A DNA stretch of 64,000 nucleotides from assembly GCF_045679555.1 (NCBI RefSeq), contig NC_092093.1:62202365-62266364 (forward strand), written 5' to 3'. The notes under the pieces are model-generated. The model had not been told where the DNA came from and made no database searches. It saw only the letters and a list, made by a program, of their open reading frames with translations. How positions within the stretch are numbered: the stretch's first letter is position 1; the number at the start of each line of letters is the position of its first letter. Made by a program: the position numbers and the translations under genes. Positions 803 through 48,765 of this stretch are shown piece by piece. The stretch comes from Salvelinus alpinus. Taxonomy: Eukaryota > Chordata > Actinopteri > Salmoniformes > Salmonidae.

Positions 803-1429
803 ATAGCGGTTGTGTGTACAGTAGTGGATAGGCCTAGTTTCTACCCTTTTCAATGGCTCACTGTCCCTGCCTCTTGGTTTCTTCCTTGTGTCCACTGGTC
901 TGTGGAGGAGATGTGTGCTGACCTGACCAGGGTCATCGAGGCTGGTGACATCCAGGCGGCCTCCATCTACGCTGCCGCCCTAGCTCATCAGCAGGCAGGG
1001 CTGAAGATCCAGCCCTCTGAGAGGAGCTACGGAGACACAGAGGTTAGGTGAGAGGGTTAAGAGCACTAGAGCTACTGGGTAGAAGAAGAGAAAGTTATTG
1101 AATAATTCAGAATATAACTTTGTAGGACAGGAAATGCATATTTTAGGAGTTTATGACGATTGTATCTTTCTGTGAAAGCTTGTCTGTAGTGGTCGAGGAT
1201 TCTTCATCTTCCTGTTGTGTCACGGTGAAAGTCCTCCCCCACACGACCATTGCAATACTCAAGCAGCAGGTCAGTCTGAACAGCTTAAACAATATATATT
1301 TATTTTTAAAAAGTTTGAATTTAAATTCAGTTCTCTATAAAATGTATTTAGCTATAAAATAGTTTTAACATGATGTTAACCTTTCTGTCAGCGTTTATTT
1401 GTCTTTCTGTCTGTCCCTCTGTCTCCTAG

Positions 1430-1709
1430 ATATTCTTGGAGTATGGCTTCCATCCGCGGGTGCAGTGCTGGGTCATCGGCCACTGTCTGTGTGCCGAGCA
1501 GCGCTCTCTGGCATCATATGGGGTGCGCAGGGATGGAGACACGGCCTTCCTGTACCTCCTCTCCGCCCGCCTCACATGGCAGCTGCTCCAGCAGGACCAG
1601 GAGAGTACCCTCCTCACCCGCGCTACCCCACCCCCCAGCAACTGCCCCACATCCCAGGACTGGAGGGGTTACAGCACCCTGCCACTCAGACTGAGCCACA
1701 GCAGCAAGG
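1430..1709 (+). CDS. sharpin: sharpin exon: ubiquitin-like domain, C-terminal half
   Basis: The exon is bounded by cctag and a gtgaga donor. It starts [17 protein letters not shown] and carries the invariant SLASYGVR and FLYLLSA motifs of SHARPIN/HOIL-1 UBL domains, the part that binds HOIP in the LUBAC complex. It joins in phase to exon 1179-1269 ([22 protein letters not shown]). A Pro/Gln/Ser-rich linker follows. This is the best-preserved part of the gene and has no defect of its own. Confidence 0.85.
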
Positions 1710-2644
1710 GTGAGACTGCTAAACACAAACAAGCACACACCACTGACATAAGGACCCATTGTTGGCACCCTCCTGACCAAGCGTTGTTCCTGTCCCTGTA
1801 GGTTCAAATGGAACAGGGCCAAATGGAGCAGGGGCAGAGAGGCTGAACATCAGTGAAATCAAAGACCTCATCAACCTGGAGATGCCACAACTCAATGATG
1901 CACTTAGTCCCAAGAAATCAGGCCCTCAGGTACACACAAGCTCTGTACAATACCCCTTGGTAATAATTGAATAACTATTTGACTCAGCTAAATGGATTTC
2001 ACCCTCAACATGACTGTTACATACCTAGATGCTGTAAGTTGACATACAGTAGATATCCATCTACACACCTGCAAAGACACTCTTGCTGTGTGTCTCAAGG
2101 TTGGGCCTGCCCCTCTTGTACGTACATAACAAGCCCACGCCGCCTGGCTGTGAGATCTGCAGTACAGACCGTCCAGAGAGTTCTACTGTTCCTGGGAGCC
2201 AGAAACCAGACACTCTGGAGCTCCACCGCATACAGCAGGAGGAAGAATCCGTCCAACAGTACCAGCAGGTAGAATGGTTTTAAGCTCAGACAGATCTATA
2301 CTCCCTCACTCATGCACGTAAACACGTTAAAATAGTGCTGATGCAAGCTGTCAGACCGTGCCGACAGGACAGGTAGGACTCTCTGATGTAGACACACACA
2401 TGCACACTCTTGCACGTACACAGTTGAAAGTTAATGCTGTGTAGTTTAAAGGTTTATTAAGGGAAAGGGAGGCTTAGTAGGATAATGTAAGAGTTGAGAT
2501 GACCAGGGAAGGTAGGATGGGCTCTCAAAGGCTGACTCTTCTTTTCTGTCTCTCTGTATTTTTAAAGCAGAAAGAGAGAAGAGAGCTGGGGGGCGCGGGT
2601 GCTCAAAACGGCTCCCTACTGGAAAACTTGGACCAGGACTACTG

Positions 2645-3773
2645 ACTCGCACGCTCCACGTATCATCACAGAAAGAGTCTCGCACGCTCCACGTATCATC
2701 ACAGAAAGAGACTGGCACGCTCCACGTATCATCACAGAAAGAGACTGGCTCGCTCCACGCATCATCACAGAAAGAGACTCGCACGCTCCACGTATCATCA
2801 CAGAAAGAGACTCGCACGCTCCACATATCATCACAGAAAGAGACTCGCACGCTCCACGCATCATCACAGAAAGAGACTTGCACGCTCCACGTATCATCAC
2901 AGAAAGAGACTGGCACGCACGCTCCACATATCATCACAGAAAGAGACTGGCTCGCACGCTCCACGCATCATCACAGAAAGAGACTGGCTCGCTCCACGTA
3001 TCATCACAGAAAGAGACTCGCACGCTCCACGTATCATCACAGAAAGAGACTCGCACGCTCCACGTATCATCACAGAAAGAGACTGGCTCGCTCCACGTAT
3101 CATCACAGAAAGAGACTGGCTCGCACGCTCCACGTATCATCACAGAAAGAGACTCGCACGCTCCACGCATCATCACAGAAAGAGACTTGCACGCTCCACG
3201 TATCATCACAGAAAGAGACTGGCACGCACGCTCCACGTATCATCACAGAAAGAGACTGGCTCGCACGCTCCACGCATCATCACAGAAAGAGACTGGCTCG
3301 CTCCACGTATCATCACAGAAAGAGACTCGCACGCTCCACGTATCATCACAGAAAGAGCCTCGCACGCTCCACGTATCATCACAGAAAGAGACTGGCACGC
3401 TCCACGTATCATCACAGAAAGAGACTGGCACGCACGCTCCACGTATCATCACAGAAAGAGACTGGCACGCACGCTCCACGTATCATCACAGAAAGAGACT
3501 CGCACGCTCCACGTATCATCACAGAAAGAGACTGGCACGCTCCACGTATCATCACAGAAAGAGACTGGCACGCTCCACGTATCATCACAGAAAGAGACTG
3601 GCACGCTCCACGTATCATCACAGAAAGAGACTGGCACGCTCCACGTATCATCACAGAAAGAGACTGGCACGCTCCACGTATCATCACAGAAAGAGACTGG
3701 CTCGCACGCTCCACGTATCATCACAGAAAGAGACTGGCTCGCACGCTCCACGTATCATCACAGAAAGAGACTG
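2645..3773. repeat. Minisatellite, about 33 copies of a 33/37-bp unit
   Basis: The unit core ctccacgtatcatcacagaa followed by agagactggcacg recurs 33 times by my count. Most units are 33 bp; some carry an extra 4 bp (cacgcacgctcc or ctcgcacgctcc). Variants (catc for tatc, ctcg for ctgg) recur in the same order about 309 bp apart, so a block of about nine units was itself duplicated. The array starts directly after the sharpin exon ending LLENLDQDY, within the gene. Long open frames seen here on both strands come from the repeat and are not genes. Confidence 0.95.
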
Positions 3774-4338
3774 ACACACACTTTCTATATTTTGCAGCTG
3801 TAACACGATGTACCATTCTCCTCAACCCATGCAGTCTCTCTCAAGCTACTGAGCAATAGTCAATTGTCTTACGACACAACCTCAGTGACTACATTACATA
3901 GGACAGCATTGTGGCTACCTACCCTCTGACCTTGTTTGAAACAAATACTGTATGTCTAAGCAAATTAATGGCTATTTTATGTTGAAATCTTTTTATATAG
4001 GACATTGTTAAAGCTACTATTTTGCATGTTTATAATAAATATTGTAACTGTACTGCAAGTCCATGTAGGCCATTTTTGCAGTGTGTCAACCAGTTGAAAC
4101 CTGTTTCAGAGAGGGAAAACAACTCTGCTGTGTTGCCCATTCTGTTCCTGTTTGTTTCAGTCTGGGTCAAGAAGTTCAAAACTGTAATTGCTGTTTGTTT
4201 TCAATGTGTTAACTCTCAAAATGCACAGTTGAATTAATAATGAATGCATTTTGACTGAAAGCATCTGTTATTGCAATTAAAACGTATTTAACTGTAATTA
4301 AGCAAGTAAAATGCTGTTTTGAATAAAATGAATGCCTG
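3774..4338. other. Spacer without recognised gene
   Basis: AT-rich sequence between two minisatellites, inside the sharpin gene. No RING1-type cysteine pattern was found on + in this stretch, where the missing sharpin exons would be expected. Nothing else is supported. Confidence 0.6.
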
Positions 4339-4346
4339 TGTGTTAA

Positions 4347-5132
4347 TTAGTGACCCTACCCCTAGTGACCCTATTGAACCTACCCCTAGTGACCCTATTG
4401 ACCCTACCCTTAGTGACCCTATTGAACCTATCCCTAGTGACCCAAGTGACCCTACCCCTAGTGATCCTACCCCTAGTGATCCTACCCCTAGTGACCCTAC
4501 CCCTAGTGACTCTACCCCTAGTGGCCCTAGTGACTCTACCCTTAGTGAACCGAGTGACTCTACCCTTAGTGACCCTATTGATCCTAACCCTCTTGATCCT
4601 ACCCCTAGTGACCCTATTGAACCTACCCCAAGTGACTCTAGCCTTAGTGACCCTACCCCTAGTGACCCTATTGCACCTACCCCTAGTGACTCTACTCTTA
4701 CTGAACCTAGTTACACTAGTTACTCTACTCCTAGTGACCCTATTGAACCTACCCCTAGTGACCCTATTGAACCTACCCCTAGTGACCCTAGTGAACCTAT
4801 CCCTAGTGAACCTACTCCTAGTGACCCAAGTGACCCTACCCCAAGTGACCCTATACCTAGTGATCCTACCCCTAGTGACCCTACCCCTAGTGACTCTACC
4901 CTTTGTGACCCTATTGATCCTACCCCTAGTGACTCTACTCTTAGTGAATCTAGTTACACTAGTTACTCTACCCCTAGTGACCCTACCTCTAGTTACCCTA
5001 TTGAACCTACCCCTAGTGACTCTACCCCTAGTGACCCTACCCCTCTTGATCCTACCCCTAGTGACCCTATTGAACCCACCCCTAGTGACCCTATTCCTAG
5101 TGACCCTACCCCTAGTGACTCCGCCCCTAGTT
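4347..5132. repeat. Minisatellite built of 9-, 15- and 24-bp units (agtgaccctacccct)
   Basis: Units agtgaccctacccct (15 bp), an extended 24-bp form with attgaaccta inserted, and short agtgaccct forms alternate irregularly for about 790 bp. All lengths are multiples of three, so two + frames and one - frame stay open (SDPTP-rich, LPLVT-rich and VTRGR-rich respectively). I see no start context, splice evidence or homology, and treat these frames as by-products of the repeat. It lies in the sharpin gene before the IBR exon. Confidence 0.9.
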
Positions 5133-5186
5133 TTCCAAAGATGCATGCAACGTGCAACAATTTCAACGATTTTACTGAGTAACAGT

Positions 5187-5863
5187 TCATATAAGGAAAT
5201 CGGTCGATTGAAATAAATAACTTAGGCCCTAATTTATAGATGGCCCACTTAGGCCCACCCATAAATGTATTTCAATTGACTGATTTCCTTATATTATGGG
5301 GGAGATGGGCCCAGCCAATCAGAATTAGTTTTTCCTCCTCAAAAGGGCTTTATTACAAACAGAAATACTCCTCGATTTCATCAGCTGTCCACGTGGCTGG
5401 TCTCAGACGATCCCGTAGGTGAAGAAGCCGGATGTGGAGGTCCTGAAATGAACATTCAGTTCTCTGGCAACAACTCTGGTAGACATTCCTCCAGTCAACA
5501 TGTCAATTGCACGCTCCCTCAAAACTTGAGACATCTGTGGCATTGTGTTGTGTGACACAACTGATTATTTTAGTGGCCTTTTATTGTCCCCAGCACAAGG
5601 TGCACCTGTGTAATGATCAGTACCAGGATGACCTGACAGCCCATTCTGTTTAATCAGCGTCTTGCTATGCCACACCTGTCAGGTGGATTATCTTGGCAAA
5701 GGAGAAATACTCACTAACAGGGACTCAAACAAATTTGTGCACAACATTTAGCGAGAAATACGCTTTTTGTACATATGGAACATTTCTGGGATCTTTTATT
5801 TCAGCTCATGAAAAATGGGTCCAACACTTTACATGTTGCCTTTATATTTTTGTTCAGTATACC
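5187..5863 (-). mobile_element. Internally deleted Tc1-like element
   Basis: The right end (gttgcctttatatttttgttcagtat) and the inner segments about 5400-5560 (gggatcgtctgagaccagcc and tgccacagatgtctcaagtt in reverse) match a common salmonid Tc1-like family as I know it. The transposase region is almost wholly deleted. A 24-nt stretch at 5618-5641 is foreign to the element and matches the sharpin exon at 6144-6167 (see findings). Confidence 0.75.
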
Positions 5864-6362
5864 TAAACATACTAGCTACTTAAGATGGCACATTGGATAT
5901 TATAGACATTCTGTATAAACACACTGGCTAATGCAGACCAGAAAACTTCGGATGGTGTGTGCACGAGGACACAGTCAACGTGTTCCACTGCCCCGTCTGC
6001 AACAAGCACAACTGCCTGCCCTGCAAGGTACACACATCACATTTACATTCACCAATGATTGCAAACTAAATGGATTTGAAAAGACCACCTCCTCTACTTT
6101 CCCCTCTCTCTCTCAGGCGATCCATGAAGAGATGGACTGTAAACAGTACCAGGATGACCTAACAGCCATGCTGAGAATGACTCAGCAGCCTGCAGAAGCA
6201 GAGATCTGCTCAAGGTGACACACAATCAGACACTTTTACATGTACTTTATACCTGTAGATTGATTTCAACAAGCATTGAAGACAAGTGGAAGGAATGTTA
6301 GGGTTTTCAGGTAGTTAGACTTTGCTCATATCATATTCACAGAAAATAACCCTCTCTCTCAG

Positions 6363-6708
6363 ACCCTGGTCCTCTCCGGGGAGGCCTTGCACTGCCCTCA
6401 GTGCATTATCATTGTGCAGAAAAAGGAGGGCTGTGATTGGCTGTGTTGCACTGTCTGTCACACCGAGATCTGCTCGGTCACCAGACTGCGTCCCTGGGTG
6501 CCAGGGGTAAGAGCCCGCCTCTCCTGTCTCTCTCTGCCACATTCAGTCAAGCTCTGCTTGGTTGTGCTCCACTGCTCACCTCTAATGCAGAGATTTCCCA
6601 TCTGTGTCTGCTACCGGTCTGTGTTTCTGTTCCCCCTAAGGGTCCGGGTGACACCAGCAAGGGCTGCCGCTGGAACATCAACAACCAAAAGTGTCAGAAC
6701 TGTCACTG
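6363..6708 (+). CDS. sharpin-locus exons encoding a RING2 (Rcat) of HOIL-1 type
   Basis: Two exons, 6363-6506 and 6641-6708, are in phase with each other. They encode EALHCPQC, then [27 protein letters not shown] and a C-terminal CQNCH. In HOIL-1 the cysteine of GCDW is the catalytic Cys of the RBR ligase, and it is present here. Odd points: HTEICS replaces the usual HTEICW, and WLCC has Cys where HOIL-1 has Arg. The preceding IBR exon (5937-6027, [26 protein letters not shown]) keeps CPVC and CLPC but seems to lack the first Cys pair. Mammalian SHARPIN has no such domain. Confidence 0.75.
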
Positions 6709-7937
6709 AGAAAGACAATAAGGGATGTGTGTGTTGTGAGAGTCAGATAGGTAGCAAGTTAGAATGGTAGGAGTAGGAACCAGAAGCCAAAGTTGACCAT
6801 GCAAGACAAATGTGTATGTCACTCAAAAGGATTGATGATCTCACTGCATGTTCAGCTCTGCACATTTCCTGTTTGTTTTTGATCTCCCTATAAAGTCATG
6901 CAATACTGTTCAGGGACACATTAAACTAAGTGTCATTCACCTTTTCAGCACTCAAAGCTAAAGCCTAATGCCAATGACAGCGTTCTGGGGTTGAAACAGA
7001 GAGCGTACTGTGTTCTGACTGGAAATAATGCAATTTTTTCTGCTTAGAAACATAATAAAAATAATCTGTTTCAAACTACATTGCGCTGTGTGTCAATTAA
7101 TAGCCATTTTGTAAGTACATGAGTGTTCATGTGAAATTAATACTTTGACATGTTCTATGTTTTTGTCCTGAATGAATAATGCAAGGCTCTGTCACAGACC
7201 GGATGTGAATACTAAAGGTTCTGTTTATTACTCACTGGCTCCTATTACAAACTCATTATGAAGGCCAAGAAAACACTGTCTGTTTTCATGGAAGAATGTG
7301 TGGAATTGCGCAGGAACTGCTGGTGTGACATTGTGCCTTAACAGTGTGTCAAAGCCACTAAACACGAGGCCTCACAAGACTCATCTGAAGGTCCCTGGTA
7401 CCAGTTGAAAAAATGAATGGAAGTATATATGGAGACTGTTTTTAATGCCAAAAATACAGTGTAAAATAAATAAATTCCTGATCTTTCTTATCTCTCAGAT
7501 ATAGGAGAAACACTTAAGAACATTCTGCTGTTCCATGTAGTGAATGTTATTAAATGTGTTTGTATGGGCTAATAGCAGTATAGTTCAAGGGGTCTTAAAA
7601 TTCCAAATCAAATAGCTAAAGGATCCTTGGTAAAACAATTTCATATCACTAGCTAGTAAAAAAAATGGGATTACATAATAAAAATAGTTTGATTGCATAA
7701 TTTCTTTACATATTTTCTTCATTTATTTGCCAAGTAGCAAACATATTATTTATTCGATGACACCTAAAAATCTATTGTGAGAGCCTATAATATAATTTAC
7801 CTCAAATGCATAGTTTTGGTGCGAAATGCAATAATAAAAAGTCAAGATAGCTGATGAAGGTAGGCTAGTCTTCTCCAGGACCCATTGTTGTTCAAGACAG
7901 TCAGTCATTCATTCAATTCTTATTGGAATCACTTAAA
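6709..7937. other. sharpin 3' flank, no gene recognised
   Basis: AT-rich sequence following the sharpin stop. It holds several AATAAA-like hexamers (for example in gtgtaaaataaataaattcc near 7460) that could serve polyadenylation, but none can be assigned with confidence. No ORF or repeat was recognised. Confidence 0.5.
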
Positions 7938-8147: not shown

Positions 8148-8271
8148 GTTAGGCTGGGCTACAGTTTATTGATAGTCATAGATTGAATTGTACTGTTTCA
8201 AGGCATTGTTAATGATGGTTGAGTATTACAATATAATTAGTAGAGCATAATAAACTGTAATGTAGTAGAAT

Positions 8272-9204
8272 ATGTGGGCGGAATTTCAAGTTACACACAA
8301 TATTGATAACTATTTTGAATTATATTTTAGATTCTTGGAGACAGGGGACTCCTACAGGACCATTGGATTCAGCTTCGGAGATGGACGGTCCACGGTGGCA
8401 GGCATTGTTCCCTCTGTGGCACAAGCCATTTGGGACTGTCTGGTTGGTGAATACATGCCTGTCCCCAAGAGGAAGACTGGAGGGCCATCGCTGCCGAGTT
8501 CCTGGAGAGGTGGAATTTCCCAAACTGCCTTCTACTGTTTCCGTGTCGTCGATGTTGGTGCTTACGGCAAGGGAAGTGATGGCGGGACCCTCCGGGACTC
8601 TGCCTTCGGCCAGCCACTTCAGGATGGCACCCTGGAGATTCTACCACCTGCATCACTCCCTGGGGCTGAAAACCTGGGACCTGTTCCCCACGTCTTCGTT
8701 GATGACGAGGCCTTCCCTTTGAGACGCAATCTCATGAGGCCCTACGCTGGACGCCAGCTGCCATTGCCAAAGCCTGTAAGGATCTTTAACAAACGACTAT
8801 CCAGGGCAAGGTTAGTTGTTGAATGCACCTTTGGGATTCTGGCAGAGCGGTGGAGTATGTATCGGAGAGTGCTTGGTCTCAGCCCCTCAAATGTCGATGC
8901 CTGCGTGAAGGCCACATGTGTTCTCCACAACGATGCCTGCGTGAAGGCCACATGTGTTCTCCACAACGATGCCTGCGTGAAGGCCACATGTGTTCTCCAC
9001 AACTCCCTGCGGAGGTCATTCCAGGAGCCACTCCAGATGGAGACGGGCACGCCAAATGGTCACCTACCTGATGTCACCGGGGCAGGTGCCAACAACGCCC
9101 CCAGACAGGCACTCCAGGTGAGGGAGAAGCTGACCACCTACTTCTCATCGCCAGCAGGTGACAGTATGCCGTGGAGTGAAACAGCTCTTTTAAGAGCCCC
9201 TTAA
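8272..9204 (+). pseudogene. PIF/Harbinger (HARBI1-like, DDE_4) transposase, decayed
   Basis: A 310-codon open frame encodes RFLETGDSYRTIGFSFGDG and STVAGIV (N-terminal helix-turn-helix region), VVDVGAYGKGSDGG (second acidic region) and DDEAFPLRRNLMRPYAG, all typical of HARBI1/PIF transposases. The segment that should hold the first catalytic Asp (GAxDGKH) is absent. Around 8455-8530 the family frame (EEDWRAIAAEFLERWNF) is in another reading phase, so compensating indels flank the deletion. Codons 209-244 are a perfect triple repeat of 12 codons. An active nuclease is therefore not expected. It probably belongs to the same element as the MADF-BESS gene at 10687-12741. Confidence 0.8.
8896..9003 (+). 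repeat. 36-bp unit in three perfect tandem copies
   Basis: Copies at 8896-8931, 8932-8967 and 8968-9003 are identical (gatgcctgcgtgaaggccac and on). Each encodes DACVKATCVLHN within the Harbinger transposase frame. A single copy is normal at this place in HARBI1-like proteins, so two were gained in frame. Confidence 0.95.
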
Positions 9205-10686: not shown

Positions 10687-12741
10687 TTAACCTGTTCTTT
10701 GCTGAGGCAGCCTCCTCAGGGTTGGCACCAGACTCATGGCAAAGAGGGTATCTTTGTCCTCCTTCCTATGAGTATCAGGTTGGGCTGCATCCCCCTCGAC
10801 GGCCTCGTTTGTCTCCACGGCCACATCCTGTTCAACGAGGTCCTCAGTGACTTCCGTGAGGGTCATAATAATCTCAGGTGGTCCCAGATCCAGAGGTGTT
10901 TCCTCCATTTCATCATCTTCCATGGCTGCACCGGTGGTGGTCATACTTGTGGATGATGTAGAGGGTCTGGCTGCACCGGTGGTGGTCATACTCGTGGATG
11001 ATGTAGAGGGTCTGGCTGCACCGGTGGTGGTCATACTCGTGGATGATGTAGAGGGTCTGGCTGCACCGGTGGTGGTCATACTTGTGGATGATGTAGAGGG
11101 TCTGGCTGCACCGGTGGTGGTCATACTTGTGGATGATGTAGAGGGTCTCGCTGCACCGGTGGTGGTCATACTTGTGGATGATGTAGAGGGTCTGGCTGCA
11201 CTGGTGGTGGTCATACTTGTGGATGATGTAGAGGGTCTTGCTGCACCGGTGGTGGTCATAATTGTGGATGATGTAGAGGGTCTGGCTGCACTGGTGGTGG
11301 TCATACTTGTGGATGATGTAGAGGGTCTGGCTGCACCGGTGGTGGTCATACTTGTGGATGATGTAGAGGGTCTGGCTGCACCGGTGGTGGTCATACTTGT
11401 GGATGATGTAGAGGATCTGGCTGCACTGGTGGTGGTCATACTTGTGGATGATGTAGAGGGTCTGGCTGCACCGGTGGTGGTCATACTTGTGGATGATGTA
11501 GAGGGTCTGGCTGCACTTGTGGTGGTCATACTTGTGGATGATGTAGAGGGTCTGGCTGCACCGGTGGTGGTCATACTTGTGGATGATGTAGAGGGTCTGG
11601 CTGCACCGGTGGTGGTCATACTTGTGGATGATGTAGAGGGTCTGGCTGCACCGGTGGTGGTCATACTTGTGGATGATGTAGAGGGTCTGGCTGCACCGGT
11701 GGTGGTCATACTTGTGGATGATGTAGAGGGTCTGGCTGCACCGGTGGTGGTCATACTCGTGGATGATGTAGAGGGTCTGGCTGCACCGGTGGTGGTCATA
11801 CTTGTGGATGATGTAGAGGGTCTGGCTGCACCGGTGGTGGTCATACTTGTGGATGATGTAGAGGGTCTGGCTGCACCGGTGGTGGTCATACTTGTGGATG
11901 ATGTAGAGGGTCTGGCTGCACTGGTGGTGGTCATACTTGTGGATGATGTAGAGGGTCTGGCTGCACCGGTGGTGGTCATACTTGTGGATGATGTAGAGGG
12001 TCTGGCTGCACTGGTGGTGGTCATACTTGTGGATGATGTAGAGGGTCTGGCTGCACCGGTGGTGGTCATACTTGTGGATGATGTAGAGGGTCTGGCTGCA
12101 CCGGTGGTGGTCATACTTGTGGATGATGTAGAGGGTCTGGCTGCACCGGTGGTGGTCATACTTGTGGATGATGTAGAGGGTCTGGCTGCACTGGTGGTGG
12201 TCATACTTGTGGATAATGTAGAGGGTCTGGCTGCACCGGTGGTGGTCATACTTGTGGATGATGTAGAGGGTCTGGCTGCACCGGTGGTGGTCATACTTGT
12301 GGATGATGTAGAGGGTCTGGCTGCACCGGTGGTGGTCATACTTGTGGATGATGTAGAGGGTCTCACTGCACTGGTGGTGGTCATACTTGTGGATGATGTA
12401 GACGTTGTAGAGGGTCTCGCTGCACCGGTAGAGGCGTGGGTCTCACTTGTAAATGACGTAGAGGGTCTTGATGCACCGGTGGCGCCCACACTTGTGGATG
12501 ACGTAAAGGGTCTGGCTGTAAAATTGCCACTCGTTGCCCTAGGCACAATAAATGGATCCAGAAAAGAAAGAATGTGGCAGAAGCGCCAAGGCTGCTGGCC
12601 TGAAGCTGCTGACCCAGACCTCTTCTTCTCTTTCTCTGCCCTTCTCTCTCTCTGATACCTGTCCCCGAGTCCTCTCCACTTCCTCCTACAGTCTTCTTCT
12701 ACATAGACATGAACATGATAAGCCAAACCATTATCTAGCAC
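10687..12741 (-). CDS. MADF-BESS domain protein, probable second gene of a Harbinger element
   Basis: A 684-codon open frame. Residues about 14-65 (CRRKWRGLGDRYQRERR, later PWRFCHILSFLDPFI) are the C-terminal half of a MADF domain, a Myb-like DNA-binding fold. The N-terminal half must come from an upstream exon that I did not find, so the ATG at 12741 may lie in an intron. Residues about 111-605 are tandem copies of a 15-residue Thr/Ser-rich unit (MTTTGAARPSTSSTS). After an acidic stretch the last 20 residues (DTLFAMSLVPTLRRLP) match the BESS interaction motif. In other animals PIF/Harbinger transposons often encode a Myb/SANT- or MADF-like partner that carries the transposase to DNA. That role is inferred here from the neighbour at 8272-9204. 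Confidence 0.7.
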   Translation of the reverse strand: MLDNGLAYHVHVYVEEDCRRKWRGLGDRYQRERRAEKEKKRSGSAASGQQPWRFCHILSFLDPFIVPRATSGNFTARPFTSSTSVGATGASRPSTSFTSETHASTGAARPSTTSTSSTSMTTTSAVRPSTSSTSMTTTGAARPSTSSTSMTTTGAARPSTSSTSMTTTGAARPSTLSTSMTTTSAARPSTSSTSMTTTGAARPSTSSTSMTTTGAARPSTSSTSMTTTGAARPSTSSTSMTTTSAARPSTSSTSMTTTGAARPSTSSTSMTTTSAARPSTSSTSMTTTGAARPSTSSTSMTTTGAARPSTSSTSMTTTGAARPSTSSTSMTTTGAARPSTSSTSMTTTGAARPSTSSTSMTTTGAARPSTSSTSMTTTGAARPSTSSTSMTTTGAARPSTSSTSMTTTSAARPSTSSTSMTTTGAARPSTSSTSMTTTSAARSSTSSTSMTTTGAARPSTSSTSMTTTGAARPSTSSTSMTTTSAARPSTSSTIMTTTGAARPSTSSTSMTTTSAARPSTSSTSMTTTGAARPSTSSTSMTTTGAARPSTSSTSMTTTGAARPSTSSTSMTTTGAARPSTSSTSMTTTGAARPSTSSTSMTTTGAAMEDDEMEETPLDLGPPEIIMTLTEVTEDLVEQDVAVETNEAVEGDAAQPDTHRKEDKDTLFAMSLVPTLRRLPQQRTG
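10925..12409. repeat. 45-bp coding minisatellite, 33 copies
   Basis: Unit gctgcaccggtggtggtcat and on to gatgtagagggtctg (45 bp) recurs every 45 bases from 10925, with the 33rd unit at 12365 and two diverged units after it to about 12515. Most differences are single transitions, such as ccggtg/ctggtg, which switches Gly to Ser in the encoded repeat. A 9-bp extra piece occurs in the last unit. Because the unit is a multiple of three, the MADF-BESS frame stays open. Confidence 0.95.
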
Positions 12742-12789
12742 AACTATAGTTTTTAGAAAGCTATCATGGACATGTCACCTACTGTACAT

Positions 12790-18497: not shown

Positions 18498-18603
18498 TAA
18501 ATATCTCTATCTCTCCAGAAACCAGATTACTGCATCTTGAGTGAGTAGTTTTGTCCATGATTTCAGGAGCAGCAGTTCTCTGTCCATCCTTCATTTCTTC
18601 AGG

Positions 18604-40879
<22,276 letters not shown>

Positions 40880-43403: not shown

Positions 43404-46400
43404 TCAATAATGGGGATGACGCCTGAGAGGGGGCCCACTCTGTAGGGTATACTGACCAGCAGGCTGGTGAGACGACTGATTGGGCGGACCCAGCGCATCA
43501 AACACACTCTTATTGGGCGGTACTGACTGGAGCATAGCGTCCAAGTCCATAATGAGGGGAGGGCGCCCGCTGGGTAAGAGGGGCCAGTAGGCATGACCTA
43601 CAAAATGGCTGGATGTGACAGGAGACCCCCCATAGCCATACAGAGGCATCCCTAGTGGAATCAGAGGGCCCCCATTAAAACGCATGCTGGGCGGGGCCAC
43701 AGCGTTGGGCGGTGTGTACTTGGCATACGAGGTGGGCAGCTCCCAGGGAGGTGCGGAGACTCTGCGGGCAGACTTGTGTGGAGGGAGTCTGCAGTCCTCG
43801 TACCCATCTGATCCCGCCTCTCCCTCAGGCACCCGCTTCCCTCCCTGCGACACGCCCCTCCAGTCCTCATCGGAGGAGGAGGAGGCGGGGCTGGCGGAGC
43901 TGGCTGAGGCGCTGCGGGCAGTGGAGGAGTAGCGAGGGTGTGGACGAGTGTGGAGCTCCACCCCCCAGCAGTCCCTGCCAGGCTCTCCTGCAGCGATGGC
44001 CGGCCTCAGGCTGTGGAGGAGGGAGTCAATGGCAAAGGACGAGTCCAGCTTGGGCCGGTACAGCTCCTCCTGAAGGGGGGAGTGTTGTCTGGTGGGAAAG
44101 AGGGGTAGAGCAGTGACAGGTGGGCCTGGGGGTAGAACAGTGACTGGTGGCGGTGGGGCCGGGGGCTCTGCGTCTGGCTTATGTTGGTGCCCATGCAGGA
44201 TGTAAGGGGCGAGGTCCTGGGCGAAGATGGTCTCATCCTGGCGCGACACGGCAGTGTTCTGTCTCTTGAGGAGCTCCAGAGGCACCCGGCTCTCCTCCAC
44301 AGCCCAGAAGTTGCCCTTCCCCTGGGGCTTACCAGGATCCTTCAATACCTACAGGGACCAGGAGTGACAGACAGCAGTGAGATCAAGAGTATAGTACAAC
44401 CTGAAAACCAGTCAGACAGGATTGCCCCAGTTTCACAAAACTCAGAATTAGCTAGAATGATTTACTTGATCTAAAGTTTCATGAAGCACTGCAGTGACCC
44501 TTGGTAGGCTACAAATAAAATGTATTCTGTATTTATTTGTACAGTGAAGCTTAAACTTAATTTCTCTCAATACTCCAGCATTTGGGATCAATTGTTTTAT
44601 ACACAGTATGAGGCGACACAGCGGCACCTTTTATTTTAGGGTATTTTAAAATATAATTTTTACTGTTTAGAAATAAAAAGCACTTTTTGTATTGAGTCCC
44701 CCCATTTGAAGGGGTCATAAGTATTTGGACAAATAGTCAAAAGTTTAGTATTTGGGCCCATATTCCAAGCACGCAATGACTACATCAAGCTTGTGACTCT
44801 ACAAACTTGTTGGCAGCATTTGAAGTTTGTTTTGGTTGTGTTTTTTGGAATATGTTTTGCCCAATAGAAATTAATAGTAAATAATGTATTGTGTGCACAA
44901 AGATCATGCCCCCAAAACATGCTAACCTCTCACCATTGTCAATAACAGGGGATGTTAGCATTTTGGGGGGGGGGGTATGATATTTGCTTCCAACTTTCTC
45001 ACTCATTATTATTTACAATTAATTAAATGATAATCTGTAGTCACAGTAGCATCCATTTAGAAGTGTTTAGAAACATTCTTATTTACAATAAAAGTGACTC
45101 CAAAACATTATTTTACCATTAATTAATTACACATGTCTAGAGTCACAAGCTTGATGTAGTCATTGCCTGCTAGGAATTTGGAACCAAATACTGACCTTTT
45201 GACTACTTTAATACATGGCACCTTACAATGGGGGGGGGGGGGGGGGGTAGATACTTAATGATTTCATTTCTAAGCAGAAAAACAAGTATGAAAATACCCT
45301 CACAAAAGGTGACATTCTGTACTGTCGACTCATATAAAACATTTGATCTCAAATAAAAAAAAAAATGCTGAAGTATAGAGCTGAATTAAAAGTTTTTGCT
45401 TCATTGTCTAAAGAAATACAAATGGGAGAGTATACTTGCTTGTAGGTTGTTTGGATTTTAGAATAAAAAATGCCTTTTTGAGCCCACTGATTGACATACC
45501 AATAAAGACCCCTAATAAGACACACCTTAACAAAGCAGTCATAGGAAGAGAGGTTGTGTCTCACTGAGTCCCGCCAGCCCTTGTAGTTCCCTTCGAAAAA
45601 AGGGAAAAGTGTACTAATCTCCTTTAGAATCTGGGGAGAGAGAAGGGAGTCAATTTACTTCAATTGGTGTCTGCATTAAAACAGACAAATTAACCGACTA
45701 TATTAAGATATGTACGATTTAACACACCACATGTTTGTAGGCATACATTTAACTAATCATTCACTGTCATCATGCAGCATTTTCATAGGCCTAGAATAAA
45801 TAACCTAAGATACACTGTAGGACTGCACAGAGAGCAATCCTTGACCATACTTCTTATCAACTCAACCCACTCCAGCTGATACATCTCAGTGTCTGGTTTC
45901 ACTGTATGCTGCTATCCTTAACAAAACAAACCAAGAAAAGCATGGCAGTGTTACTACTCTGTTAAGCGTCAAATGATTGTCCTGTTGGTTTAATGCAATT
46001 GAACTGCATATCCCTACCCCAACAAAGACAGTTTTTTTTACTTATCATAAGAGAACATCCCCGATTAGAAATTAAGTTTTAAAATAATTAAAACCCATTT
46101 AACCTTTATTTTCGGAAACTTAAATACTATATTAAAATAACAATCATTTAATAGACAAAACTACCATGCATAATTTGGCCAAAATTGACACAACCGTTCG
46201 TAATTAGGGCCAAAATGTACCATTCTAAACTCGCATGTCCACACACAAACTCACTTTACCTCAGACAAAGTAAGTTTCTTCTCTGGAGAGTTTTGGATGA
46301 CCATGGTAATCATTGCGAGGTAGGAGTAGGGTGGTTTGGGGTAGCGCTGATAGTTCTTTTTCTTTCCACTTTTCGCATTTTTCTCTTCGTCCCAAGATTT

Positions 46401-46667
46401 CTCCTGGTCTAGCGGACTCGCTTTATCCATGGGCGCTGAGACCAGGCTGAATTGGTCACGGGCAGGCTTCTCGAGCCGTGGAGGCTGTCGGACTGGCGCC
46501 TGGATTGGGCAGTAGGGCCAGTGTTGGGCTGGAGAGCTCCGCGCTGTGTTGCTCAGAGGATGGATCTGGAAGTCAAGTTGATGATCTTGGTGGCCTTCCA
46601 GGCTAGGACAGTGCAGGTAGAGAGCGGGTGGTGCCAGCATGCTCTGACCCCCCCAGTGCTTTGTCAT
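43404..46667 (-). CDS. foxh1: Forkhead box H1 transcription factor, three exons, 485 aa
   Basis: Exons on -: 46667-46260, 45630-45526, 44348-43404, all phase 0 with GT-AG introns. ATG 46667 gives [20 protein letters not shown]; a TTG three codons upstream is not a start. The forkhead domain spans residues about 111-200: [25 protein letters not shown], then [52 protein letters not shown]. The Pro/Ser-rich rest ends with a Smad-interaction region: [19 protein letters not shown] at residues about 439-458. FoxH1 binds Smad2/Smad4 in the nucleus and activates Nodal targets in mesendoderm and left-right patterning. No disruption is seen. Intron 2 carries a foldback element. Confidence 0.95.
44515..45335. 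mobile_element. Foldback DNA element in foxh1 intron 2
   Basis: Bases about 44700-44800 (agtatttgg.cccatattcc, atgactacatcaagcttgtg) recur inverted at about 45135-45205 (cacaagcttgatgtagtcat, aatttggaaccaaatactga). A related element lies at 48766-49690. Two G-runs (44965-44976 and 45230-45247) occur inside. No ORF. Confidence 0.75.
45230..45247. repeat. Run of 18 G
   Basis: Uninterrupted G homopolymer within the foldback element in foxh1 intron 2. It could form a quadruplex and is liable to sequencing error. Confidence 0.95.
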
Positions 46668-46699
46668 GCTGATCAACCTGGGGGCAGATCGGGATGCAC

Positions 46700-48765
46700 G
46701 GTCGGAGAGGGAGGGAGTCGGCCCTTAACCCCTGGCAGACTGCTGGCTCCAGGCCGCTGGCTGGCTACCTATTTGAAGAGCAAACAATTAACAGTTTCAT
46801 GTAAATCCCGCTGTGTAATCGATGAGAGAATGGAGCGCTATCTGCGGGCAGAATGACTGATCGCCCCGGGCGGCTAGGGAGGGTCTGTGTGTGAGAAAGA
46901 GACAGTAAACCTGTAAATAACCCCTCGGACAAACAACATGCCACTTAGCACACAGCGTTAATTTTGGTAATCCGCTCCAAAACTTTTACGCATCAGGTGC
47001 GCACAGGAGTGAGCTTCTTATATCCGCAGAGAGAAACATCCAAATGTTTTTATTTATATATCAGTCCACTGGAATGAATTGAATCATTAGCCCCCCTTAC
47101 ACAAGGTGTTGGGGATCACAGTGAGAAAGGTACCCCCAACCTCCATCTCATTCCCTTCATTTTTAAAACTTGCTTACAGTAAGCACAGATTGTGACGTTC
47201 CAATGCCACGACATCAGTCGCCAGCGTGCCCCATATAAAAGGGGTGAATTGAGAGCGGGGAGAAGTAGAACGAGAGGGTCCCACAAAGCAGATTGAAAAA
47301 TAAACCAAGAGGTATTTTTTTGTGAGGCTTTCATTTCATTCAATATACATAGGACCGCTAATATACAAATATTGAGGGATTAACACCCTGGCCCACTAAA
47401 ACACATACTGACGGAAGACAGAGAAAATGTCAACTGAAAGATTACCTCAATTGTGTTGCTGATTTGTTATAAATTGTCAACACCGGACAAAATCTAATCG
47501 ATCACATTTGTCAATAGTAACTGCCCGATTAAGATCCTGTATACCATATTTATTAGAAGGATAATATAATCGAATTATTTAAATATGGTAGATGTTGCAT
47601 AGTCGGAGAAAAGAAACAGTAGGCAGACTAGGCACTGGTATAGCCTACGTGGTGTCAGCAGAATTAGGATCGATGTTCGTATTCAAGAGTAAATACACAT
47701 TTTTGAGAGTTCTCAAAAACCCAGGGACCGTGCAGGAGCGCACCGGGTTGAGGGTGTATTGCGCACAGTAGGAAGTCCCTTGAGAATATGCAGTGCAGGT
47801 CCAAAGAGATTAGTTTCTTTTGTGTAAATTAATGTAGTGTTAATGCCATAGCCCCTACCTCTCAGCAAAACAAGTTGGATTAGCCAGATTGACCCCGTCT
47901 CGTTCCTGGGATTGCCTACTATTCAGCATGTGAGGAAGACAATGGAAGATTGAACACCATCCATGGTCGCCAAGTGATGGGGACATTCGCACCTTGTAAA
48001 TACGAGCTATTGTCCGATTTATGCACAGGTTCAATTTAAATATAGGCTATGCAGAAGCCGTTACATGACACATTATTATGAAGGCTGTCTAACCAAGGGA
48101 ACATTTTAATTAATTAACTCTGACAGTTAGGCAGACCAATATGGGGAGAAATTTGCACGTTCAAACAAAACTGAAAAATGTGCAAGTAATAAATACATGT
48201 TGCCTACAATATGTGAAAGTGGCAAAGCGCGTTTTACCCTGTTGAGTGTCTCAGGTAAGCTAGGTCTGACGTTTTTTTTTTATGTCTTCGATCTTACGGT
48301 GTAGAAATGAGCAGTCAAATGTTTCAGATCAGATATTGGAGTGAAGATGATATCGAAAAGGTACAGGAGACCGTCGTGCATTCATGCTGTCCTCACCTGG
48401 CTAGCAATCGCCTGGTACACGGTCTAATTGCTCCAATGTGACCTCTCGTTTCCAATTAGTTGTAATCGACCAACTCTTCCTGCTTCCTATTATGAATTGT
48501 GTTCTGACAGGCATTCCATGCAAAACACAATTTCAGAGTACTATGCAACTAAATATGTTTGGTTATTTGGGTATTTATAGAAGAACAATGTGATATAGTT
48601 TATAAAGACTAACTCATATTTTATAGTCTGCTGTTCAGAAACTTGTTAGGACATGTATGTACATTTGAGTAGACATGTTCAGGCCAAAATCAATACTTCA
48701 GAATTGCTCCCTGATGACTATTAAAATTAGAAAATGAAGGATAATAGATTATACAGTGCCCTACT
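46700..48765. other. foxh1 upstream region
   Basis: No gene or repeat is recognised. A perfect TATA box motif on + (tataaaag, 47234-47241) lies about 570 bp upstream of the foxh1 ATG and points away from it. Regulatory elements of foxh1 are likely here but cannot be defined from sequence alone. Confidence 0.4.

Follow-up and report, generated by a model that had tools for sequence, protein, structure and literature searches.

A Probable Decayed sharpin Copy with Remnants of a HOIL-1-Type RBR in Salvelinus alpinus

A window of 64,000 nucleotides from Salvelinus alpinus (contig NC_092093.1, positions 62,202,365 to 62,266,364 of the forward strand) carries, within its first 7 kb, plus-strand exons of one gene of the kind associated with the linear ubiquitin chain assembly complex (LUBAC), the borders of which were read directly. 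This locus is probably a decayed copy of a fish sharpin gene whose intact ancestor would have encoded the order LTM-UBL-NZF-linker-RING1-IBR-RING2, where LTM stands for the LUBAC tethering motif. Mammalian SHARPIN ends soon after its NZF and has no RBR. The locus resembles SHARPIN (SIPL1) in its LTM, in SHARPIN-type residues of its UBL, in its NZF and in its place beside oplah, but differs in that it continues with exons for a HOIL-1-type linker, IBR and RING2 and in that its reading frame is broken. Homology, order and orientation of these parts, as well as the lesions, are directly seen in the sequence. With HOIL-1 (RBCK1, an ester-forming ligase of the RBR type), the locus shares the LTM, the stretch from the NZF into the linker, the IBR, and a RING2 with the GCDW cysteine, the C-x19-C spacing and a CQNCH end. 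Unlike HOIL-1, it has a broken frame and a UBL that is less similar to HOIL-1 than to SHARPIN.

SHARPIN-Type Features of the N-Terminal Half

The N-terminal half is spread over several exons on the plus strand. The LTM exon (898–1047, 150 bases; Pfam and border reading) matches the family PF25393 with E=5.1e-16 and is followed by UBL exon 1 (1179–1269; structure-sequence match and border reading), the SHARPIN-like UBL exon 2 (1430–1709; structure-sequence match, diagnostic residues and borders), a linker exon between UBL and NZF (1802–1929; border reading) and an NZF exon that runs into a HOIL-1-type linker (2100–2268; Pfam, tblastn and borders). A further exon may lie upstream at 350–431, where AG/GT borders enclose a stretch that is open in the frame joining the LTM exon; this weak candidate is proposed from borders and frame only. 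The N-terminal PH-like dimerization domain of SHARPIN was not seen and would lie before position 1 of the window. AG/GT was found at the internal exon borders with two exceptions: the LTM acceptor reads TG, and the exon following the NZF closes on its 3' side with a stop codon. The LTM border at 898 was picked to match the phase of the weak exon 350–431. If the latter is not real, an alternative acceptor AG at 906–907 is usable and the acceptor lesion at the LTM exon falls away.

As claimed in a preliminary description of this DNA, the UBL resembles that of SHARPIN. A query of 137 residues covering LTM and UBL retrieved 13 distinct PDB sequences within a limit of E=0.01. The Sharpin chain 5y3t_C ranks first (111.9 bits, E=2.5e-31) and the HOIL-1 chain 5y3t_A second (98.5 bits); the remaining matches are Sharpin, HOIL-1 or ubiquitin entries. 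Identity amounts to 65/125 against the mouse SHARPIN row versus 56/128 against the mouse HOIL-1 row. For a stricter comparison, 33 diagnostic columns were used in which the rows agree within each family and differ between SHARPIN and HOIL-1. Here the fish sequence bears the SHARPIN residue at 16, the HOIL-1 residue at 3 and neither at 14. Since the human rows do not include the LTM, only one of the 19 decided columns lies outside the UBL exons, which contain 15 of the 16 SHARPIN-type ones. When each family is represented by a single row, the 70 differing columns are divided into 24 with the SHARPIN residue, 14 with that of HOIL-1 and 32 with neither; UBL exon 1 contributes 9, 3 and 8, respectively, and UBL exon 2 contributes 12, 6 and 6. 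These residues favor a UBL nearer to SHARPIN than to HOIL-1, whereas the affinity of the LTM appears undecided and settles nothing between the two.

The same description had also announced a SHARPIN-type NZF. The domain is present (PF00641, E=7.2e-08, with two frames joined by hand), but its frame is not intact and its character is partly HOIL-like. Downstream of the NZF, exon 2100–2268 aligns with EEEALRQYQQ, which follows the NZF in HOIL-1 (tblastn: 47 residues, 55% identical, including part of the NZF). Hence, since NZF and HOIL-1-type linker share this one exon, the SHARPIN-side gene already holds HOIL-type sequence, and the proposed linker, of HOIL-1 type, was found within the NZF exon itself. 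The subsequent post-NZF exon (2571–2645, KERRELGG...LENLDQDY-stop) is placed by its borders, and its similarity to HOIL-1 was seen by eye only; its position corresponds to the HOIL-1 stretch that precedes RING1.

A HOIL-1-Type IBR and RING2

Further downstream on the same strand follow IBR exon a (5937–6027, GWCVHED...CPVC...NCLPCK), an exon for the IBR-RING2 helix (6117–6214), RING2 exon a with the catalytic GCDW and CTVCHTEIC (6363–6506), and RING2 exon b (6641–6709), which ends CQNCH-stop with its stop codon at 6707–6709. The first three rest on structure-sequence match, tblastn and borders, the last on structure-sequence match, tblastn and alignment. At E up to 0.01, the joined exons match six distinct sequences of the PDB, namely five HOIL-1 sequences (best E=1.2e-48, a HOIL-1 chain of 8bvl) and one Ariadne chain (E=0.0044). 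Identity to human HOIL-1 is 80/131 compared residues, and tblastn on the raw DNA (E=2e-25) retrieves pieces at 5938–6027, 6108–6506 and 6635–6706. The Pfam match to IBR_1 is weak and sub-threshold (E=0.028, 14.7 bits vs a cut-off of 27). An IBR-like exon and a RING2 with GCDW, CHTEIC and CQNCH-stop, as originally described, are thus confirmed in the same orientation and with introns.

According to two reports, HOIL-1 is characterized by Cys460 as the catalytic residue, His510 at the C-terminus and a Zn2/Cys6 cluster of the form C-x19-C-x-C-x6-C-x3-C-x2-C (PMC9834252; PMC9853177). The RING2 remnant keeps the catalytic cysteine (GCDW), the x19 spacing and the terminal histidine in CQNCH-stop. 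Compared with HOIL-1, two of the six cysteine positions of the binuclear cluster are missing and four are present (ligand spacing from PMC9834252), and a gap of four residues lies near the RING2 end. The IBR lacks a counterpart of the cysteine in HOIL-1 TPDC, and its first part is also missing from the remnant. RING1 was not detected on either strand of the window by a RING1-only tblastn (best E=0.34).

Decay and the Intervening DNA

The locus has the appearance of a pseudogene, not of a gene for a living SHARPIN-RBR protein, with the NZF broken as well as the RBR. The spliced frame halts at a TAA (2127–2129) inside the NZF exon, and the NZF lies in two frames other than the spliced one, with the break inside the NZF. 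An intact in-frame NZF is accordingly absent: the domain is recognizable, yet split across two frames. A TGA (2643–2645) closes the post-NZF exon. In addition, exon 6117–6214 comprises 98 bases, where alignment to HOIL-1 needs 99 (33 codons), so that the frame breaks again. The intra-NZF break and the 98-base exon are independent of the choice of splice sites. Frame-disrupting changes occur in NZF and IBR and none in the UBL exons, a distribution that is unremarkable if random (rough estimate ~0.07). Contrary to what had been supposed, the coding sequence therefore does not continue into the RBR but meets these interruptions. The suggested decay without RING1 holds for RING1 itself, but is not limited to the RBR. 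Likewise, the span of 1179–6708 given for the locus needs correction at both ends: 1179 is the start of UBL exon 1, while the locus reaches back at least to 898–908 and possibly to 350 or to before the window, and 6708 falls within the terminal stop codon. As read from its sequence, the present copy cannot produce an RBR ligase. Complete silence of the locus is only likely, because a UBL-bearing protein could still arise if the NZF exon were skipped.

Repeats and mobile-element-like DNA occupy much of the space up to 5862. A plus-strand minisatellite with a 33-base unit in about 33 copies (2644–3773) begins inside the TGA that closes the post-NZF exon. The repeated unit holds CAGAAAGAGA, similar to the beginning of this exon (CAG|AAAGAGAG), and the minisatellite may therefore have grown out of it. 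A second tandem-repeat tract on the plus strand (4351–5131) consists of CCCTAGTGA-type units and is followed by a probable non-autonomous mobile element (5143–5862, plus strand) with an internal inverted repeat at 5189–5218/5265–5294. Its identity as a mobile element and its ends are presumed. AATAAA polyA-like signals lie between the two halves at 4034 and 4322.

Alternative Explanations

The IBR and RING2 exons do not stem from a retrocopy, since they are separated by introns with AG/GT borders. A more serious alternative invokes two adjacent genes, i. e. a sharpin ending at 2645 and, downstream of it, the decayed 3' part of an independent rbck1 duplicate that had arrived there. It would account for halves that are more than 3 kb apart, separated mostly by repeats and by the AATAAA signals, for a C-terminal part that matches HOIL-1, and for an end shortly after the NZF as in mammalian SHARPIN. 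Yet the NZF exon itself bears a HOIL-type linker that mammalian SHARPIN does not have, and order, strand and the missing RING1 fit one interrupted gene. Because the linker in the NZF exon and the IBR and RING2 exons stand in the right order and orientation and with introns, a single interrupted gene is a simpler solution than a chance neighbor, and two genes are considered unlikely. Slightly less probable still is a living, shortened scaffold in which the NZF exon is skipped, a UBL-bearing SHARPIN runs to 2645 with polyadenylation near 4034, and only the RBR is dead. Without the NZF exon, the frame is indeed open through the post-NZF exon to the TGA, the UBL exons are open, and skipping of the 150-base LTM exon would, by its length only, also be neutral for the frame. 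Such a predicted protein would, however, have lost the NZF and perhaps the LTM, and the lesion-free state of the UBL exons may be due to chance. The least probable option, to which we give little credence, is a teleost rbck1-type (HOIL-1) gene with a merely SHARPIN-like UBL that is not an orthologue of SHARPIN. Past the UBL, the locus is built like HOIL-1, its LTM tends slightly toward HOIL-1 and the comparison is unrooted, but bit scores and UBL residues favor SHARPIN, and the oplah/foxh1 synteny is that of SHARPIN, with the human positions presumed.

Several observations weigh against a single decayed sharpin gene. Nothing homologous joins the halves between 2645 and 5937 by tblastn, so that the second half may be a juxtaposed rbck1 fragment. 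The fish sequence shows the HOIL-1 residue at 3/19 decided strict sites and at 14/38 decided sites with one row per family, the columns of the LTM exon (SHARPIN 3, HOIL-1 5, neither 18) account for the slight HOIL-1 lean mentioned above, and the NKPT part of the NZF is HOIL-like. Moreover, the residue comparison is unrooted and draws on two SHARPIN and two HOIL-1 sequences with no outgroup; the fish branch therefore cannot be placed. It covers mammalian SHARPIN and HOIL-1 with no orthologue from another fish, and scans of genome contigs and viral contigs confirmed no relative. As for the decay, the stop at 2127 depends on the chosen splice phase, the TG acceptor lesion hinges on the weak exon 350–431, and all lesions come from a single assembly, in which sequence errors could account for part of them.

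Neighboring Genes and Further Features of the Window

The reported position next to oplah proved correct. Pfam identifies the domains Hydant_A_N, Hydantoinase_A and Hydantoinase_B on the same plus strand at about 18.6–37.3 kb (18541–37342), so that oplah is stretched across nearly 19 kb, perhaps to 39.4 kb as judged by eye. Copies of a Tc1-like transposase lie within it at 21041–21442 and 23756–24568 (plus strand) and at 34310–34939 and 35244–35933 (minus strand). Beyond oplah, foxh1 is found on the minus strand at 45–46.7 kb by its Forkhead domain, the closest solved structure being that of FOXH1. This gene (43407–46724) has its forkhead domain in two pieces (46254–46724 and 45352–45654), and the minus-strand frame 43407–44348, which has no Pfam match, may be its C-terminal part. 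In human, SHARPIN, OPLAH and FOXH1 are presumably located together at 8q24.

Between the locus and oplah, a DDE_Tnp_4 endonuclease domain, which we take to be of Harbinger type, is encoded in an open frame (8269–9201, plus strand) where a 36-base stretch occurs three times without change at 8895–9003. On the minus strand, an open frame of 695 residues (10690–12774) shows weak matches to MADF and BESS near its ends, with BESS below the cut-off, and other frames across the same region show long internal repeats.

Ancestral Architecture and Significance

A single gene seems once to have held all of these parts. Its ancestor would have fused a SHARPIN-type HOIP-binding half to a HOIL-1-type catalytic half. 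If HOIL-1 is a guide, the encoded protein most likely docked to HOIP via LTM and UBL; binding of ubiquitin via the NZF and a HOIL-1-like RBR, whose RING2 would have carried the catalytic cysteine and the C-terminal histidine, are likewise suggested by analogy. The present copy would then have lost RING1 together with the beginning of the IBR, with minisatellites and mobile-element-like DNA in their place, and its remaining exons would have acquired lesions in frame and ligands. That the RBR was SHARPIN's own is suggested by the shared NZF-linker exon, the gene order and the synteny, which together give it at least an even chance and perhaps a somewhat better one. The wider scenario, which we regard as evenly balanced, is that the SHARPIN of early vertebrates was a complete RBR ligase of the HOIL-1 kind: ancestral LUBAC would have possessed, in addition to HOIP, two accessory subunits with an RBR, mammals would have lost the RBR of SHARPIN, some fishes may retain an active one, and the locus would be a fossil of it.

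A SHARPIN with an RBR was not described among the listed matches of a search in the open-licence literature, which extended neither to subscription papers nor to genome annotation pages and drew on partial texts. SHARPIN appears without an RBR, or the question is left untreated, in passages of PMC9084887, PMC5413910, PMC6044281, PMC3305615 and PMC5090701. An annotated fish sharpin with an RBR may already be in databases.

If the RBR was not SHARPIN's own, the locus is just another of many decayed gene copies. If it was, mammalian SHARPIN, usually called an adaptor, would be a ligase minus its catalytic half, a second ligase of the ester-forming kind could belong to fish LUBAC, and the LTM, UBL and NZF common to SHARPIN and HOIL-1 would be explained. 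The locus thus hints that early SHARPIN may have been built as a ubiquitin ligase, part of which was later lost.

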